Shown here one piece after another: positions 6,784 through 24,866 of a stretch of DNA of 40,753 bases. The stretch is from Armatimonadota bacterium. GTDB taxonomy: Bacteria; Sysuimicrobiota; Sysuimicrobiia; Sysuimicrobiales; Humicultoraceae. Location: the NCBI GenBank assembly GCA_031081585.1, contig JAVHLY010000021.1, forward strand, positions 12,675 to 53,427, in the 5' to 3' direction. A model generated the notes under the pieces. That model saw only the letters and a program-made list of their open reading frames with translations, was not told the DNA's origin and ran no database searches. Every line of letters starts with the position of its first letter. Position 1 is the first letter of the stretch. The position numbers and the translations under genes are program-made.

Positions 6784-8129
6784 CAGGCCGGGGCGGGCTT
6801 GCGGGTGCGGGCGCGCAGCTCGAAGCGGATGGGCGCTCCCGGGAAGGGGAAGCTGTCCCGCACGGCACGCTCGAGGTACTGCAGGTAGCTCTCGGGGAGG
6901 AGCGTCGGGTCGTTCACGAAGAGGACGACCGTGGGCGGCCTGGCGTGGGGCTGCGTGGCATAGAGGATCTTGGCGCGCCGCCCGCGGTGGTCGGCCGGCG
7001 GCGGGGCGGCGGCCTCGGCCGCTTCGATCACCCGGTTGAGCGGCCCCGTGGGGACGCGCGTGGCGTAGGCCTCGGCGACGCGCCCGAGGGCCTCCAGGAG
7101 GGCGTCCAGGCCCGTGCGGGCGGTGGCGGAGACCGGCACCTGCGGCGCATAGGCGACGAAGCGCAGGGCGTGCGCCGCCGCGCACCGCACCTCCGCGGCG
7201 CGCTCCCGGTTGCCGGCGACCAGGTCCCACTTGTTCAGCACCACCACGAGGCCGCGCTCCGATGCGGCGATCTGTCGGGCGATGCGCTGGTCCTGGTCGG
7301 TCACCCCCTCGGCCGCATCCACCACCAGCACGGCCACGTCCGCCCGCTCGAGCGCCCGGCGGGTGCGGCTGACGCTGTACCGCTCCACCGGCGCCCCCAC
7401 CCGGGCCGGGCGGCGCAGCCCGGCCGTGTCGACGAGGACGTACGGCGCGCCCCCGATCTGCACGACAGTGTCCACCGCGTCGCGCGTCGTGCCGGGCTCG
7501 GGAGCCACCACGACGCGCTCCTCCCCCAGCACCGCGTTCACCAGGGAGGACTTGCCGACGTTGGGCCGTCCCACGACGGCCACGCGGGTGGGGGCTGCCG
7601 CCTCCTCGGCCTCGTCGGTCGGCGGCAGCAGCGCCACCACCTCGTCGAGGAGGTCCCCGGCCCCGCGCCCGTGCAGCGCCGAGACGGGCAGTGGCGCGCC
7701 CAGCCCGAGCGCATGGAACTCGTGGACCGCCGCCTCCTGCTCCGGGCCGTCAACCTTGTTGGCCACGAGCAGCACCGGCTTGCGGGCCTGGCGCAGGAGG
7801 TGCGCCACCTCGGCGTCCTCCGGGAGCAATCCGCTCTGCGCGTCCACGACGAAGAGGAGCACGGCCGCCTCCTCGACCGCCCGCAGCGTCTGCTCCCGCA
7901 CCGCCCGCGCGACGGCGTCGACGGCGCCCCGCTCCTCGCCGGCGCGCAACCCCCCGGTGTCCACGAGGAGGAAGGAGCGGCCGCTCCACTCCACGGGGGC
8001 GTAGAGCCGGTCGCGGGTGAGTCCCGGCGTCTCCTCGACGATGGCCTGGCGGCGGCCGATCAGGCGGTTGAAGAGCGCGGACTTGCCCACGTTGGGCCGC
8101 CCGACGATGGCCACGACGGGGCGCGCCAC
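6783..8129 (-). CDS. der: ribosome biogenesis GTPase Der
   Basis: Double-GTPase EngA/Der, needed for 50S ribosome assembly, 448 residues as usual for the family. G domain 1 has GRPNVGKS (10-17), DTGGL (57-61) and NKVD (124-127). G domain 2 has GRPNVGKSS (187-195), DTAGL (234-238) and NKWD (299-302). A KH-like C-terminal domain follows (RAKILYATQ...FVNDPTLL). It lies 12 bases after ispH and overlaps the GT39 gene by one base. The ispH-der neighbourhood is common in Bacillota-like gene orders. Confidence 0.97.
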   Translation of the reverse strand: MARPVVAIVGRPNVGKSALFNRLIGRRQAIVEETPGLTRDRLYAPVEWSGRSFLLVDTGGLRAGEERGAVDAVARAVREQTLRAVEEAAVLLFVVDAQSGLLPEDAEVAHLLRQARKPVLLVANKVDGPEQEAAVHEFHALGLGAPLPVSALHGRGAGDLLDEVVALLPPTDEAEEAAAPTRVAVVGRPNVGKSSLVNAVLGEERVVVAPEPGTTRDAVDTVVQIGGAPYVLVDTAGLRRPARVGAPVERYSVSRTRRALERADVAVLVVDAAEGVTDQDQRIARQIAASERGLVVVLNKWDLVAGNRERAAEVRCAAAHALRFVAYAPQVPVSATARTGLDALLEALGRVAEAYATRVPTGPLNRVIEAAEAAAPPPADHRGRRAKILYATQPHARPPTVVLFVNDPTLLPESYLQYLERAVRDSFPFPGAPIRFELRARTRKPAPA

Positions 8130-8141
8130 GGCGACTCCGGG

Positions 8142-9014
8142 TCAGGTGGCGGAGGGAGCGGGTGATGGGGGCGCGCCCCGGCTGATCTCCTCGAGGCGGT
8201 GGAGGACCTGCGCGATGATCCAGTCCGGGGTGGAGGCCCCCGACATCACGGCCACCTTCTCCACCCCCTGGAACCACGCGGGGTCGAGCTCGTCGGGGAC
8301 CTCGATGTGGTAGGTGGGCAGCCCGCGGGCGCGGCCGATCTCCGCCAGGCGCGTGGTGTTGCTGCTGCCGTGGCCGCCCACGACGACCAGGGCCTGGACC
8401 TCCTCCACCAGCCGCTCGGCCTCCTCCTGGCGCACCGTGATGGCCGGACAGAGGGTGTTGAGGACCTTCAGCTCCTTCACCCGCACTGCCAGGTCGGCCA
8501 CGATCTGCTTGAAGTTCTCCAGCGACTGCGTCGTCTGGGAGAGCACCCCCACCCGCCCGCGCACCTTCACCTGTCGGGCTTCCTCCAGCGTGTGGACGAT
8601 GGTGACGCGGTCCCCCAGGACCTCCTTGAGCGTGACCATCTCCGGGTGGCCGTGGTCGCCCACGACGATGAGGGTGTAGCCCTCCTCGGCCAGCTTGAAG
8701 GCCAGCTCGTGGGCCCGGATGACCACCGGGCAGGTGGCGTCCACGATGCGCATCCCGCGGGCGCGGGCCTGGTCGAGGACGGCGTGCTCCACCCCGTAGG
8801 CGGAGACGACGAAGGCCTCGCCGTCCAGTTCGTCCAGGTGCTCGGCCACACGCACGCCGGCTTCCTCGAGGCGGCCCACCACCTGCGGGTTGTGGATGAG
8901 GGGACCCCAGGTGAAGACGGGGCCGGCGCTCTGCTCGGCGGTCGAGCGGGCCATCTCCACGGCCCGCCGGACCCCGCCGCAGAAGCCCATGTGTCTGGCG
9001 ACGATGATCTCCAC
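8142..9014 (-). CDS. ispH: 4-hydroxy-3-methylbut-2-enyl diphosphate reductase (IspH)
   Basis: Last enzyme of the MEP isoprenoid pathway, reducing HMBPP to IPP and DMAPP with a 4Fe-4S cluster. The three cluster cysteines are visible: Cys12 (GFCGGV), Cys95 (DATCPVV) and Cys189 (NTLCPA). His41 (HNPQVV), the HGHPE motif with Glu125, and SQTTQS are also present. The protein has 290 residues, normal for the family. It starts with GTG at 9014 behind GGAGGG. It shows that this organism uses the MEP route, which makes the HMG-CoA reductase at 22.7-24.0 kb notable. Confidence 0.96.
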   Translation of the reverse strand: MEIIVARHMGFCGGVRRAVEMARSTAEQSAGPVFTWGPLIHNPQVVGRLEEAGVRVAEHLDELDGEAFVVSAYGVEHAVLDQARARGMRIVDATCPVVIRAHELAFKLAEEGYTLIVVGDHGHPEMVTLKEVLGDRVTIVHTLEEARQVKVRGRVGVLSQTTQSLENFKQIVADLAVRVKELKVLNTLCPAITVRQEEAERLVEEVQALVVVGGHGSSNTTRLAEIGRARGLPTYHIEVPDELDPAWFQGVEKVAVMSGASTPDWIIAQVLHRLEEISRGAPPSPAPSAT

Positions 9015-18946: not shown

Positions 18947-19930
18947 ATGGCCTGGCTGACCTTCTCCTCCTCGCTGGCAGGGCGCCGCCGCTCCAGCGAC
19001 CGGGTCCGGCTGTGGCGACGGCTCCGCCGCCTCGGGGCAGTGACCGGGCCGACCGGCGTCACCGTGCTGCCGGACCGTCCGGAGACCCGGGAGGCCTTCG
19101 CCTGGCTGGCCCAGGAGGTCCGCCGGTCGGGCGGTGAGGCCCTGGTGCTGCACGTCCGGAGCTTCAACGGCCTCCAGGACCGGGACCTCGTCCGGCTGTT
19201 CCAGGAGGCCCGGCGGCAGGACTACCGGGCGCTGGAGCGGGAGCTGCGGCGCCTGGAAGCGGGCCTGCACAGCCGGAGCGACGACCCGGCACGGCGACGG
19301 GCGGCCGCGGCCCGGCTGGCCCGGCTGCGGCAGCGGCAACGGGAGATCCGCCGCATCGACTTCTTCCCCGTCACCGAGGGGCGTCGCGTCGAGGCACACC
19401 TGGCCCGCCTCGAACGGCGCCTGACCCGCGTCACGGCCCCGGGCGAGCCGCGTATCCCGCGCCGGCGTCCGGAGGCCTTCCGGGGCCGACGGTGGGTCAC
19501 CCGCCCCCGGCCCTACGTCGACCGGCTGGCCTGCATCTGGTTCATCCGCCGCTTCATCGACCCGAACGCGCGCGTCCGGTATGCCGACCGTCCGCGCCGC
19601 GGCGAGGTGGCCTTCGACATGGAGGGCGGGGAGTTCACCCACGTCGGCCCGCTCTGCACCTTCGAGGTCATGGTCCGCGCGTTCGGCTTGAGCGACGAGG
19701 CGCTCACGGCCATCGGCGAGATCGTCCACGAACTCGACCTCCAGGACCGCCGCTTCGTCCGGGCTGAGCTCGCGGGCGTGGACGCCGTGCTCCGCGGGTG
19801 GCACGCGGCGGGCTGGTCGGACCGCGTGCTGGAGGCCTGCGGCGTGGCCCTCTTCGACGGGCTTTACCGGAGCCTCTCGGCGCGCACGGCCGCGCGCCGT
19901 CGCGCCCGCACCCGGCGGCCCGGCGGATGA
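18947..19930 (+). CDS. chrB: ChrB, chromate-resistance regulator/sensor protein
   Basis: Full-length ChrB of 327 residues. The N-terminal part (about 20-110) is the winged-helix-like ChrB domain (LRRLGAVTGPTGVTVLP, HVRSFNGLQDRDLVRLFQEA), followed by a charged helical linker (about 110-185) and the C-terminal ChrB domain (YVDRLACIWFIRRFIDP ... VHELDLQDRRF). In studied systems ChrB acts as a chromate-responsive regulator of chrA. The stop overlaps the chrA ATG (ATGA), so the two are translationally coupled. The ATG at 18947 has a weak RBS. It faces the short ChrB-C gene across a shared promoter region. Confidence 0.93.
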   Translation: MAWLTFSSSLAGRRRSSDRVRLWRRLRRLGAVTGPTGVTVLPDRPETREAFAWLAQEVRRSGGEALVLHVRSFNGLQDRDLVRLFQEARRQDYRALERELRRLEAGLHSRSDDPARRRAAAARLARLRQRQREIRRIDFFPVTEGRRVEAHLARLERRLTRVTAPGEPRIPRRRPEAFRGRRWVTRPRPYVDRLACIWFIRRFIDPNARVRYADRPRRGEVAFDMEGGEFTHVGPLCTFEVMVRAFGLSDEALTAIGEIVHELDLQDRRFVRAELAGVDAVLRGWHAAGWSDRVLEACGVALFDGLYRSLSARTAARRRARTRRPGG

Positions 19931-21171
19931 GCGGCGCACCACGGTCACAGCCTCCAGGACCCGGGATCCCACCGGAGCCCTGGGGGCGGCTCTTCCTGCG
20001 GTTCCTGCGGTTCGGCCTCCTGGCCTGGGGCGGGCCGGTGGCCCAGATCGCCATGATCCGCCAGGAACTCGTCGAGGAGGCGCGCTGGGTCTCCCGCGAG
20101 CGCTTCAACCGCGTCCTCGCCGTCTACCAGGTGCTGCCCGGGCCCGAAGCGCACGAGCTCTGCGTCTACTTCGGAATGCTCGCCCGCGGGCGACTGGGGG
20201 GTCTGCTGGCCGGCCTGGGGTTCATGCTGCCCGGGTTCCTCCTGATGTTCGGCCTCTCCGCCCTGTACGCGGCGGGCGTCCGCGCGCCCCTGTGGCAGGC
20301 GGTCTTCCTGGGCATGCAGCCTGCCGTCGTTGCCCTCGTCGTCCGGGCGGTGCACCGCATCGGGAGGCACGTGCTCACCGATCCCTGGGCGTGGGCCGTC
20401 GCCGCCGCGACGGCGCTGGGCGAGACCCTGGGCCATCCCTTCTGGGTCACTCTGCCGACGGCCGGCCTCGCGGCGCTGCTGGCGCGTCGGCCCGGGCTCC
20501 GGATCGCCGCGGGGCTGCTCCTGATGGTAGTGCTCCTCGCGGGCCTGGTGCAGGTCGGGGAGACGCGCCGGCCCCGGTTGGAAGTACCCCGATGGGGCCT
20601 GCCCCACAGCACCGTCCCGCCATTGCCCGGTGAGGCCGTCGGAGAGCCTGCCATCGGGCGGCTGTTCCTCTCCGGGCTGCGGGCCGGCCTGCTCACTTTC
20701 GGCGGGGCCTACACCGTCCTCCCCTTCCTGCGCCGCGACGCCGTCGAGGTGGGCCGGTGGATGACCGATGCCCAGTTCCTCGACGGGGTGGCGCTCTCCG
20801 GCATCCTCCCCGCCCCGTTCATCATCTTCAGCACCTTCGTGGGCTTCCTCGGCGGCGGCCCGCTTGGCGCACTCGCCCTCACCGTGGGCATCTTCCTCCC
20901 GGCCTTTGCCATCACCCTCACCGGGCACGGGGCGCTGGAACGCCTGGTCGACGTAGCGGGCGTGCGGACGTTCCTGGACGGGGTGAGCGCGGGGGTGGTG
21001 GGGCTGATCGCGACTACCGCCCTTGACCTCTTCGTCACGGGCGTGCGCGACCTCGCCGGCGGGATGCTCTTCGCCGTGGCGCTCGTCACGCTGCTCCTCT
21101 GGCAGGCCAGGGCAGGGGTGGCCGCGGTCGTCGCGGCCGCCGGTGCGGCAGGGCTGCTCCTCTTCCGCTAG
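19927..21171 (+). CDS. chrA: chromate transporter ChrA (two-domain, long form)
   Basis: Membrane exporter of chromate in the CHR superfamily, 414 residues with two homologous halves. Each half begins with the family motif: FLRFGLLAWGGPVAQIAMI (about 20-38) and FLSGLRAGLLTFGGAYTVLPFL (about 245-266), with LPGPEAHELCVYFG and LSGILPAPFIIFSTFVGFLGGG in the matching later positions. About ten to twelve helices are expected. The start is fixed by the ATGA overlap with chrB. It would lower cytoplasmic chromate by efflux. Confidence 0.95.
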   Translation: MSGAPRSQPPGPGIPPEPWGRLFLRFLRFGLLAWGGPVAQIAMIRQELVEEARWVSRERFNRVLAVYQVLPGPEAHELCVYFGMLARGRLGGLLAGLGFMLPGFLLMFGLSALYAAGVRAPLWQAVFLGMQPAVVALVVRAVHRIGRHVLTDPWAWAVAAATALGETLGHPFWVTLPTAGLAALLARRPGLRIAAGLLLMVVLLAGLVQVGETRRPRLEVPRWGLPHSTVPPLPGEAVGEPAIGRLFLSGLRAGLLTFGGAYTVLPFLRRDAVEVGRWMTDAQFLDGVALSGILPAPFIIFSTFVGFLGGGPLGALALTVGIFLPAFAITLTGHGALERLVDVAGVRTFLDGVSAGVVGLIATTALDLFVTGVRDLAGGMLFAVALVTLLLWQARAGVAAVVAAAGAAGLLLFR

Positions 21172-21636: not shown

Positions 21637-21642
21637 TATAAT
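21637..21642 (+). promoter_or_regulatory. -10 box for the di-iron/HMGR/lipid kinase operon
   Basis: A perfect TATAAT in GC-rich surroundings, about 90 bases before the first gene of the operon. The -35 is weak (GGACAG, 16-base spacing). No other promoter candidate was seen in the gap. Confidence 0.55.
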
Positions 21643-21733
21643 GCCTGGGTAGTCGGTCTGAGGGGACCGTGGCGCGCCGCGTGCGGCGGCGCGGCGGCGG
21701 GCCACCGCCGGGCGCAGACGACAGGGTGAGACG

Positions 21734-22684
21734 GTGACGAGACCAGGTACGCGCGCTGGCATCCGGGGCGTCATCCGCATCTTCCCCGACCTGGAGGAGG
21801 ACCTGCTCCTCAACCTCTTCCACAAGGCGGCGAAGGTGCAGTGGACCTCCCGCGACCTCGACTGGGGGCAGTCCCTCCAGATGACGGAGCGGCAGCGCCA
21901 GGCCCTGGCGCGCATGCTCACGCCCGTCTACCTGGGGGAGCAGACCGCCATGGTGGGCGCCAGCGCCATCCTCCCCCAGCTCATGGACGCCGGGGAGACC
22001 ACCGCCCAGCTCTACCTGGCCTCCTTCATCATGGACGAGGCCCGCCACTTCGAGGCGCTCACGCGCCTGTACCGGCGGCTGGAGTACCACCCCATCGGGC
22101 TGCGCGAGCTGCCGGAGATGCTGCGCTACCACCACCGCCTGCGGCAGGGCGACCGGGCCGACTGGGTCTGGGGCATCCTCATCAGCGACCTCTTCGCCAA
22201 GCACTTCTACCGCTGGTTCGCCGAAGCCCAGCCGGAGGCGCTCTTCGGCCGCATGTCGGCGAAGATCCTGGTGGACGAGTCGCGGCACCAGGCCTTCGCC
22301 GAGCACTACCTGCGCCGCAACATCCCGCGCATGGAGCCGGCCCGCCGCGCCGCGCTGGTGGCCATGCGCGACGAGCTCTACCGCATCATGCACGCCATGA
22401 ACGACCGGCTGCGCGCCGACTGCGAGGCGCTGGCCTTCGACGGCGACGCCTTCCTGGCCCGGCTGTGGGACGACATCGAGTACTTCACCCGGCGCATCGG
22501 CCTCACCGACGGCACCCCGCCGCCGCCCGACCCGGCCCGCCTCGGCCCCGACGCGCCCGTGGAGGAGGAAGCAGAGGACCGGCCGCGCCCCACCCTCCAC
22601 CTGGCCGGGCTCCCCCTGCCGCGCTGCTTCGGGTGCGTCCTGGCCCTGCTCTGCCACCCGCGGGCGCAGCCCGCTCCGGCGTGA
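21734..22684 (+). CDS. R2lox/ferritin-like di-iron protein
   Basis: A 316-residue four-helix-bundle protein resembling R2-like ligand-binding oxidases and ribonucleotide reductase R2. Candidate metal ligands are Glu69 (LGEQTAM), Glu102/His105 (DEARHFEAL) and Glu182/His185 (DESRHQAF). The third-helix Glu expected in R2lox falls, by my alignment, on Ser151, with Asp152 next to it (GILISDLFA). The family binds Fe/Fe or Mn/Fe and oxidises fatty-acid-like ligands in some members. The start is GTG at 21734 behind GGGTGAG. It overlaps the HMG-CoA reductase gene by four bases (GTGA). The exact reaction is unknown. Confidence 0.75.
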   Translation: MTRPGTRAGIRGVIRIFPDLEEDLLLNLFHKAAKVQWTSRDLDWGQSLQMTERQRQALARMLTPVYLGEQTAMVGASAILPQLMDAGETTAQLYLASFIMDEARHFEALTRLYRRLEYHPIGLRELPEMLRYHHRLRQGDRADWVWGILISDLFAKHFYRWFAEAQPEALFGRMSAKILVDESRHQAFAEHYLRRNIPRMEPARRAALVAMRDELYRIMHAMNDRLRADCEALAFDGDAFLARLWDDIEYFTRRIGLTDGTPPPPDPARLGPDAPVEEEAEDRPRPTLHLAGLPLPRCFGCVLALLCHPRAQPAPA

Positions 22685-23976
22685 GGGCCCCGCCCACCCG
22701 CCGGTCTCCCTGGCCGCGCCGCAACATGCCGGAGCAGATCGCCGAGCGCCAGGCCGCCCTGCGCGCCCTGCCCCAGTGGGAGTCGCAGCACGAGTTCCTC
22801 TTCGCCTTCCCCCACCCCCCCGAGGTGTACGCCAGCGCCATCGAGGCGCTCACCGCCGGGATGTTCCTGCCGGTGGCGGTGGTGGGACCGCTGCGCGTGG
22901 AGCTGGGGCGCTACGCGGTCGACCCCGCGGACGGCCGGCTGGTGGAAGAGGGGCGCGAGGTCGACGAGGTCTTCGTCCCTATCGCCCACACCGAGGGGGG
23001 GCTGTCCGCCTCGATGCTGCGCGGCATGACAGCGGTGCTGCAGGACGGGGGCGTGCGCACCTACGTGCTGCACGACCGGATGACGCGCGACTCCGCCTTC
23101 GTCTTCCGCACCACCGGTGAGGCCGTCGCCTTCGCCCGGTGGGTCGCCGCCCACGCCGCGGCGATGCGGGACTGGCTGCACGACCCCCAGAACCCGCTCT
23201 ACCGGGAGCGGGTGGGCGGGGTCGCCCGCCTCAGCCGCCACGCCCGCCTGTGGGAGGTGGACACCCACGTGGTCGGCGCCACCTGCCACGTCCTCTACCG
23301 GTACACCACCGGGGACGCCTGCGGGCCCAACATGATCACCCGCAACTCCCACGCCCTCAACCACGAGTTCATCATGCGCCGCTTCCCCGCCGAGACCGGC
23401 ATCACCCCGGTGCGGTTCTTCCTGGAGACCAACATGGGCGGGGACAAGAAGCCGAGCGCCCTGTACTACATCCAGGGCGGGCACGGCAAGACCGTCCTGG
23501 CCGAGGCCACCGTGAGCGGGGAGACGCTGCGCCGCGTGCTCCGCACCACCGCCGAGGACCTCGTGGCGCTGGAGCACGCCGGCGTGCACGGCAGCCACGC
23601 CAGCGACATGCAGTCGGTGGCCTTCACGCCGGCCTCGGCCATCGCCGCCCTCTTCGCCACCACCGGGCAGGACCTGGGAATGGTGGGGACGAGCAGCATG
23701 GCACACGAGGTCCTCGAACCGGCCGGCGACGGGGTCCACCTGGCCATCCGCCTGGCCGGGCTCGAGGTGGGGACGGTCGGCGGCGGTACCGTGCTGCCCC
23801 ACGCCCGTGCCTACCTGTCGCTCCTGGGGTGCACGGGACCCGGCAGCGTCTACCGGCTGGCTCAGATCATCGCCGCGGCCACGCTCTGCCTGGAGCTCTC
23901 CGCCTCGGCGGCCATGGCCAGCGCCGGCAGCGAGAGTTTCGCCACCGCCCACCTGCGGCAGAGCGGGCGGGTGTGA
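22681..23976 (+). CDS. hydroxymethylglutaryl-CoA reductase family protein
   Basis: HMG-CoA reductase fold, about 431 residues from the GTG at 22681 (GTGA overlap) or 416 from the ATG at 22726. Numbered from that ATG, the catalytic set is complete: Glu90 (HTEGGLSAS), Lys241 (GGDKKPSA), Asp316 (TTGQDLGMVG) and His409 near the C-terminus, plus the dinucleotide motif DACGPNM (197-203) and GTVGGGT (349-355). It diverges from human-type enzymes around the TEG motif (VPIAHTEGG rather than PMATTEGC). No membrane anchor is seen. In mevalonate-pathway organisms it makes mevalonate, but this genome has IspH, so another use is possible. Confidence 0.88.
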   Translation: MRAPPTRRSPWPRRNMPEQIAERQAALRALPQWESQHEFLFAFPHPPEVYASAIEALTAGMFLPVAVVGPLRVELGRYAVDPADGRLVEEGREVDEVFVPIAHTEGGLSASMLRGMTAVLQDGGVRTYVLHDRMTRDSAFVFRTTGEAVAFARWVAAHAAAMRDWLHDPQNPLYRERVGGVARLSRHARLWEVDTHVVGATCHVLYRYTTGDACGPNMITRNSHALNHEFIMRRFPAETGITPVRFFLETNMGGDKKPSALYYIQGGHGKTVLAEATVSGETLRRVLRTTAEDLVALEHAGVHGSHASDMQSVAFTPASAIAALFATTGQDLGMVGTSSMAHEVLEPAGDGVHLAIRLAGLEVGTVGGGTVLPHARAYLSLLGCTGPGSVYRLAQIIAAATLCLELSASAAMASAGSESFATAHLRQSGRV

Positions 23977-24866
23977 GGGCGTTCGCCATCGTCAACCCCG
24001 CCGCCGGCGGGGGGCGGGCGCGACGGGTGTGGCCGGCGGCGCGCCGCACGCTGGTGGCGGCCGGCTGGCAGGTGGACGAGGCCACGGCCGAGCACCGCGG
24101 CCACGAGGCCGACCTGGCCGCCGCCGCGCGTGACCGCTACGAGGTCGTGATCGCCGTCGGCGGCGACGGGACCGCCCACTGGGCGGTGAACGGCCTGCTG
24201 CGTCCACCGGCCCCGGGCGCCGGCGCTCCGACCCCGGCCCTCGCCGTCATCCCCGCCGGCACGGGGGCGGACTTCGCCGCGGCCATGGGCCTGCCGCGCC
24301 ACCCGCTGGACGCGGCTGCCCGGCTGGCGGGCGGACGCGTCGGACGCGTCGACGTGGGCCGACTCAACGACCGCTACTTCCTGACCATCGGCACCGTGGG
24401 GTTCGGGGGCGAGGTGGCCCGGCAGGTGAACGCTTGGCCGCGCGGGGTGCCCGGCCCGCTGCTCTACGTGGCCGCCATCCTGAAGATGCTGGCGGTCTAC
24501 CGCCCCGTCGAGATGACGGTGACCCTCGACGGCACCGCCCGCCGCCGCCGCCTCTTCATGGTGGCCGTGGGGAACACCTCCCGCGCCGCCGGGGGCATGC
24601 GGCTGTGTCCCACCGCGCGGCCCGACGACGACCGCTTCGAGGTGGTGGTCTTCGGCGACCTCACCCGGCCGCAGGTGCTCGGCCTGCTGCCGCGCGCCTT
24701 CTCCGGCCGGCACGTGCTCCACCCGCTGGTGGAGGTCCGGGCGGCGCGCACGGTGACGGTGGAGAGCCCTACCCCCCTCTCGCTGCAGGCCGACGGCGAA
24801 CTCGTCGGACAGGTGCCGGCCACTTTTGCGCTGGTCCCCCGCGCCCTCGCCGTCCTGGTCCCCTGA
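23973..24866 (+). CDS. diacylglycerol kinase-family lipid kinase (DagK/YegS-like)
   Basis: A 297-residue lipid kinase with the catalytic domain at the N-terminus: IVNPAAGGGRA (6-16), AVGGDGTAHWAVNGLL (61-76) and the second glycine stretch VIPAGTGADFAAAMGLP. It would phosphorylate diacylglycerol, a sphingoid base or an undecaprenol-like lipid using ATP. The Glu found after GGDGT in many members (GGDGTxNE) is replaced by Trp. The GTG start overlaps the HMGR stop (GTGA). Being third in an operon with a di-iron oxidase-like protein and HMG-CoA reductase suggests lipid modification as the shared task (inference). Confidence 0.9.
   Translation: MRAFAIVNPAAGGGRARRVWPAARRTLVAAGWQVDEATAEHRGHEADLAAAARDRYEVVIAVGGDGTAHWAVNGLLRPPAPGAGAPTPALAVIPAGTGADFAAAMGLPRHPLDAAARLAGGRVGRVDVGRLNDRYFLTIGTVGFGGEVARQVNAWPRGVPGPLLYVAAILKMLAVYRPVEMTVTLDGTARRRRLFMVAVGNTSRAAGGMRLCPTARPDDDRFEVVVFGDLTRPQVLGLLPRAFSGRHVLHPLVEVRAARTVTVESPTPLSLQADGELVGQVPATFALVPRALAVLVP

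Follow-up and report, generated by a model that had tools for sequence, protein, structure and literature searches.

We analysed a 40,753-nucleotide stretch of DNA from an Armatimonadota bacterium (GenBank assembly GCA_031081585.1, contig JAVHLY010000021.1, positions 12,675 to 53,427), hereafter the window, which contains a run of three plus-strand genes (21734-24866) coding for a di-iron protein, a relative of 3-hydroxy-3-methylglutaryl (HMG)-CoA reductase (HMGR), an enzyme known from cholesterol synthesis, and a lipid kinase. At least three distant groups of bacteria making isoprenoids without mevalonate keep the HMGR relative beside the di-iron protein. This arrangement points away from mevalonate synthesis and towards a lipid-modifying step that has yet to be described. 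No published description of this pair was found in the open-access literature. The genes, and the 4-base overlaps at their two junctions, are the following.

21734..22684, plus strand: di-iron protein gene, 316 aa, ferritin-like di-iron (or Mn/Fe)
22681..22684, plus strand: GTGA stop/start overlap, di-iron gene to HMGR-like gene
22681..23976, plus strand: gene of the HMGR-like protein, a predicted acyl-thioester reductase, 431 aa, PF00368, class I HMGR fold
23973..23976, plus strand: GTGA stop/start overlap, HMGR-like gene to kinase gene
23973..24866, plus strand: YegS/Rv2252/BmrU-type lipid kinase gene, 297 aa, DAGK_cat, YegS_C, TIGR00147

A first-pass annotation of this DNA had already described three genes overlapping by GTGA, and both overlaps are indeed present. 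Its end point for the trio, 24866, was right, but the first gene starts near 21734 and not at 21637.

The window HMGR-like protein matched Pfam PF00368 with an E-value of 6.8e-75. Its predicted structure (pLDDT 77.6, pTM 0.83) adopts the class I HMGR fold, with a Foldseek E-value of about 1e-27 and 29% identity to the Methanothermococcus enzyme 6hr7. Its TIGR00533 score, 189.9 bits, falls far under the equivalog cut-off of 441.8; its E-value was the best among 10 members. Residues were then compared, in the numbering of human HMGR (1dqa), over 43 family members mapped through sequence profile alignments, not superposed crystal structures. The equivalents of Glu559, Lys691, Asp767 and His866, which serve thioester reduction (E105, K256, D331 and H424 in the window), were invariant in 43/43 sequences, as were those of Arg590, Asp690, Lys692, Ser565 and Arg568, and the GTVGGGT motif is kept as in class I enzymes. 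By contrast, Ser684 was replaced by Glu, His752 by Thr, Asn755 by Ser, Leu857 by Met, and Lys735 by Ala, Val, Thr or Ile in all 43, while Leu853 was Ala and Cys561 Gly in 42 of the 43. The family also reads G[DE]ACGPN for GDAMGxN, and HTEGG in place of TTEGC; the latter change, noticed in the first-pass annotation, proved to be real and essentially family-wide.

Of the replaced positions, those of Lys735, Ser684, His752, Asn755 and Leu853 sit around the HMG carboxylate and the acyl pocket. Lys735 forms a salt bridge to the HMG carboxylate, and the roles of Ser684, Lys735, His752 and Asn755 in binding this carboxylate or forming the pocket are taken from the same source (PMC9500038). Judged by these alignments, the predicted reduction machinery is kept and the part predicted to recognise HMG has been rebuilt. 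Since the residues of the carboxylate and acyl pocket are replaced while those of thioester reduction are invariant, the substrate is probably not HMG-CoA. The protein is an HMGR homologue, but with its carboxylate-binding residues lost it probably does not strictly qualify as an HMG-CoA reductase, which refines the first-pass annotation.

In a tree of HMGR sequences, the family and another HMGR-like group were resolved as separate; within the family, a supported clade united the window lineage, and the loci of a Binatota-type order clustered together. Two other kinds of HMGR-like protein were met. A genome of the window's family (G003, locus L019) carries, at about 7721-8893 on the minus strand, a second, degenerate protein of 390 aa, in which the catalytic Glu is Asp, Lys691 is Leu and His866 is Ile; its gene lies two genes from a CrtI-like FAD protein, and it may be an HMGR that has lost catalysis or been repurposed. 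Distant phylum-mates of the Binatota-type genome G043 (loci L123, L124, L125 and L126) hold another divergent HMGR-like group, with an N-terminal extension of ~140 residues in 3 of the 4, Asp or Glu at Ser684, and Lys735 lost. In L123 and L124 genes for a methyltransferase and for a CrtI-like FAD protein are found close by, with no mevalonate genes in view.

We next consider the isoprenoid route of the host. As previously noted, the final enzyme of the methylerythritol phosphate (MEP) pathway is encoded in the window:

8142..9014, minus strand: IspH, TIGR00216 282 bits, cut-off 187.85

The window's genome (2.88 Mb, 96.5% complete) also encodes IspG, and contains one PF00368 protein. A search of the whole genome detected no HMG-CoA synthase and no diphosphomevalonate decarboxylase, mevalonate kinase not being searched for separately. 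The apparent lack of HMG-CoA synthase, first reported for the neighbourhood, extends to the genome, and the idea of a full mevalonate pathway elsewhere in it was rejected, as these searches gave no evidence for it. The same picture was found in other carriers: HMG-CoA synthase was detected in 0/37 genomes tested and IspG in 35/37, and each of 10/10 tested had a single PF00368 protein.

The distribution of the system was examined in genomes that were mostly metagenome-assembled. A contig scan yielded 9 relatives, 6 within one Binatota-type order and 3 from Bacillota; such a scan finds close relatives only, so that the true distribution is larger. The 6 Binatota-type records are labelled Binatota, Deltaproteobacteria, Proteobacteria or, evidently by mistake, Klebsiella. 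The last is locus L004, whose contig is titled as a Klebsiella pneumoniae metagenome-assembled genome; it bears a Binatota-type locus and belongs to a genome placed in the Binatota-type order, so the title appears to be wrong. By genome counts, HMGR was present in 3/43 genomes of the window's phylum, the same 3 having a close di-iron protein, in 16/16 of the Binatota-type order, and in 55/154 of a Bacillota class that we suspect to be Sulfobacillia. The pair is small and widespread. Within the Bacillota class, the di-iron protein accompanied HMGR in 54 of the 55 positive genomes, the one exception having only an incomplete HMGR where a contig ends (Fisher p 3e-29 over the 154 genomes, uncorrected for shared ancestry). 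Comparison of coordinates placed the two genes within about 3.1 kb of each other in 48 of the 55.

Adjacency was scored by hidden Markov model (HMM) matches on all open reading frames; a simple gene caller gave wrong readings at some loci of very high GC content (L105, L120), and the di-iron gene of L111, which it had missed, was recovered in this way. The two genes were adjacent in 37 loci of the three groups, namely 36 counted by geometry and the split locus of G004, which spans a contig break. In 14 loci of the Binatota type and 2 of the window lineage, the di-iron gene precedes HMGR on one strand. Among Bacillota-class loci, 10 have it convergent with HMGR, 9 have it downstream on the HMGR strand, and 1 has it upstream. 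Adjacency in several geometries means that the link survives rearrangement and, recurring in three distant groups, the pairing is more than chance. The order di-iron, HMGR, kinase was observed in 14/14 Binatota-type loci, in 12 of which the first two genes also overlap by 4 bases, and in 3/3 window-lineage genomes (G004 included, across its break). The trio is therefore conserved both in the window's lineage and in another phylum. It is often trailed in the Binatota-type order by an alpha/beta hydrolase, or by a short-chain dehydrogenase and a methyltransferase, and an AMP-dependent acyl-CoA synthetase adjoins the di-iron gene in several Bacillota loci. Such neighbours hint at acyl and lipid chemistry, though clade synteny may account for them.

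The di-iron protein had been called R2lox-like, a description that holds only approximately: it stays far below every R2lox cut-off, the best model giving 31 bits where 194 are required. Its predicted metal ligands, E69, E102, H105, D152, E182 and H185, were invariant in 58 sequences, including the two ExxH motifs of the di-metal site (E102/H105 and E182/H185). Profile comparison matched the N half to R2lox/R2 (6qrz, E 6.7e-7) and the C half to the cyanobacterial aldehyde-deformylating oxygenase (ADO; 4kvs, E 1.9e-6). The structural model, of moderate confidence (pLDDT 74, pTM 0.72), matched both folds, with a TMt of 0.75-0.80 to the ADO structures 4rc5, 4rc6 and 5k53 (rmsd 2.9 at TMt 0.80). 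The protein thus shares with R2lox a helical di-metal fold, a similar N-half sequence and a six-ligand site, and with ADO its C-half sequence and fold. Membership in either family was nevertheless ruled out. Besides the R2lox cut-offs, the position of the Val in the R2lox cross-link (Val72) is Ala in 58/58 sequences, and that of the Tyr (Tyr162) aligns with Trp or Phe. For ADO, PF11266/TIGR04059 matched just one member out of 8, and that marginally (E about 1e-3), the protein is longer, and Asp152 stands for Glu115 of ADO. A match to AurF was weak and below cut-off. With Asp as third ligand and Ala at the cross-link Val, the protein is distinct from both, and by these sequence criteria forms a predicted new family between R2lox and ADO, in neither.

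Several Bacillota-class genomes (G314:C1:619590-620354 and others, L138-L141, L147 and L148) carry a second di-iron paralogue, scoring about 280 bits. It is unlinked to HMGR, and in two loci adjoins a small membrane protein that looks DoxX-like.

The third gene of the trio was correctly recognised as a DagK-type kinase. The protein matches the YegS/Rv2252/BmrU lipid kinases over its full length, with DAGK_cat and YegS_C domains and a TIGR00147 score of 164.8 bits, over the cut-off of 118.65. Nothing decisive distinguishes it from these enzymes; its operon context is new. Window and Binatota kinases share 32-40% identity, compared to about 56-62% for the HMGR-like protein, and differ in a motif, GGDGT versus GGDGL. 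Bacillota-class loci moreover lack it next to the pair. Of the three genes the kinase is thus the most loosely attached, and in our reading the core of the system is the two-enzyme module of HMGR-like and di-iron proteins.

Our favoured reading, to which we give slightly less than an even chance, is that a lipid chain is handled in series by two enzymes, one reducing an acyl thioester and the other a di-iron enzyme that activates O2, a kinase being added in two lineages. The linkage of the genes, the lack of HMG-CoA synthase, the kept catalytic residues, the loss of HMG-binding ones and the invariant metal ligands are observed; the substrate, the order of steps and the product we infer as follows. 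The HMGR-like protein would reduce an acyl thioester in an NAD(P)H-dependent manner to a hemithioacetal and then an aldehyde, possibly on to an alcohol, the acyl chain being one without the terminal carboxylate of HMG. The di-iron (or Mn/Fe) protein would activate O2, and oxidise or deformylate the aliphatic product or its precursor. In the window lineage and the Binatota-type bacteria, the co-translated DagK-type kinase would most likely phosphorylate the resulting hydroxyl-bearing lipid, the end product probably being an unusual polar membrane lipid. Absence of HMG-CoA synthase and conservation of the trio support the unusual lipid or acyl-CoA pathway suggested at first; neither of the two findings named in the first-pass annotation as refuting it, a complete mevalonate pathway elsewhere or a trio not kept in relatives, was made. 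Resemblance of the di-iron protein to ADO and R2lox was also counted in favour, because both act on or bind aliphatic chains (PMC10867098), as was the acyl-CoA synthetase next to the pair in several Bacillota loci.

Several observations weigh against this proposal. The two genes are not adjacent in 7 of the 55 HMGR-positive Bacillota-class genomes, and 11 genomes of the class carry the di-iron protein without HMGR; nothing consistent was found as a replacement partner near the di-iron gene in the 6 loci read from these 11 (antiporter and nucleoside genes were seen). No Bacillota-class locus examined has the kinase beside the pair, and the acyl-CoA synthetase link may be synteny shared inside one clade. 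Finally, retention of Arg590, Asp690 and Lys692 makes a 3-hydroxyacyl group, or HMG-CoA in a new pose, possible. These same residues, together with the four invariant catalytic ones and the class I fold, are what a true HMG-CoA reductase would show, one producing mevalonate from HMG-CoA of other origin (leucine breakdown, for instance), either to serve some purpose other than isoprenoids or as part of an incomplete mevalonate route. We hold this to be unlikely: equivalents of Lys735, Ser684, His752 and Asn755 are all replaced, scores are far under the equivalog cut-off, HMG-CoA synthase was missing from the 37 genomes and diphosphomevalonate decarboxylase from the window's genome, and the di-iron partner is left unexplained. 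That the kinase is a passenger, an ordinary YegS-type enzyme inserted downstream of a two-gene unit, is somewhat unlikely yet deserves more weight. Its absence from the Bacillota-class loci, its low identity between window and Binatota and the GGDGT/GGDGL difference are in line with such an insertion, but it occupies the same position and order in 17/17 non-Bacillota genomes examined, and in the window is coupled by 4 bases.

Two further schemes keep the lipid substrate and change the chemistry. HMGR catalysis proceeds via an aldehyde intermediate, and cyanobacterial ADO likewise works with a thioester reductase partner. A thioester reductase found together with a ferritin-like oxygenase mirrors the partnership of ADO with the cyanobacterial acyl-(acyl carrier protein) reductase, which the HMGR-like protein might replace, the ADO-like protein then turning fatty aldehyde into alkane or alkene. 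The C-half profile and the model superposition agree with such hydrocarbon synthesis. We nevertheless find it quite improbable, since HMGR normally takes the aldehyde on to the alcohol and His866, Asp767 and Lys691, used in both steps, are retained; the third metal ligand is Asp, not Glu; a lipid kinase is ill-suited to alkane export; and the N half is closer to R2lox, proteins of which showed no ADO activity when tested for it (PMC10867098). Conversely, alkane hydroxylation has been reported for GkR2loxI, the R2lox of Geobacillus (PMC10867098), and hydroxylation could come first, an R2lox-type hydroxylase acting on a fatty chain before the HMGR-like protein reduces the acyl-CoA to a diol or hydroxy-alcohol, which the kinase would phosphorylate for an ether or diol lipid. 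The kept Arg590 and Asp690 equivalents could hold a 3-hydroxyl, and the kinase is co-translated in two groups, but the residues of the Tyr-Val cross-link are not conserved and no ether-lipid gene was recognised nearby; this order of events appears equally improbable.

In its widest form, the proposal is that an HMGR fold operates outside mevalonate metabolism, as a fatty acyl-thioester reductase joined to a new family of ferritin-like di-iron oxygenases, on an as yet undescribed route to hydrocarbons or to oxidised or ether-type membrane lipids, in at least three phyla. We put this forward tentatively, as possible though rather doubtful. HMG-CoA reductase is treated as a marker of the mevalonate pathway, and annotation is consequently likely to file these HMGR-like genes as an isolated step of mevalonate synthesis. 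Should the enzyme reduce another acyl thioester, genome-based mevalonate calls would need correction, and an acyl-CoA reductase family with an oxygenase partner would interest lipid and hydrocarbon biochemistry.

As for the surroundings of the trio, a convergent neighbour in the window is shared with the related loci L017 and L018:

24879..25598, minus strand: PlsC-type acyltransferase

Upstream of the trio, Binatota-type loci may have a CDP-alcohol phosphatidyltransferase or haem genes, but each occurs in only part of the group, probably through local synteny, and they were discarded as candidate members. The window trio is immediately preceded by genes for a ChrB-type regulator and for a chromate transporter of two domains (18947-21171, plus strand), whereas L017 and the relative L020 have ispH upstream instead. 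L017 and L018 also have, after the kinase, a 214-aa transglutaminase/vasohibin-like protein that is missing in the window.

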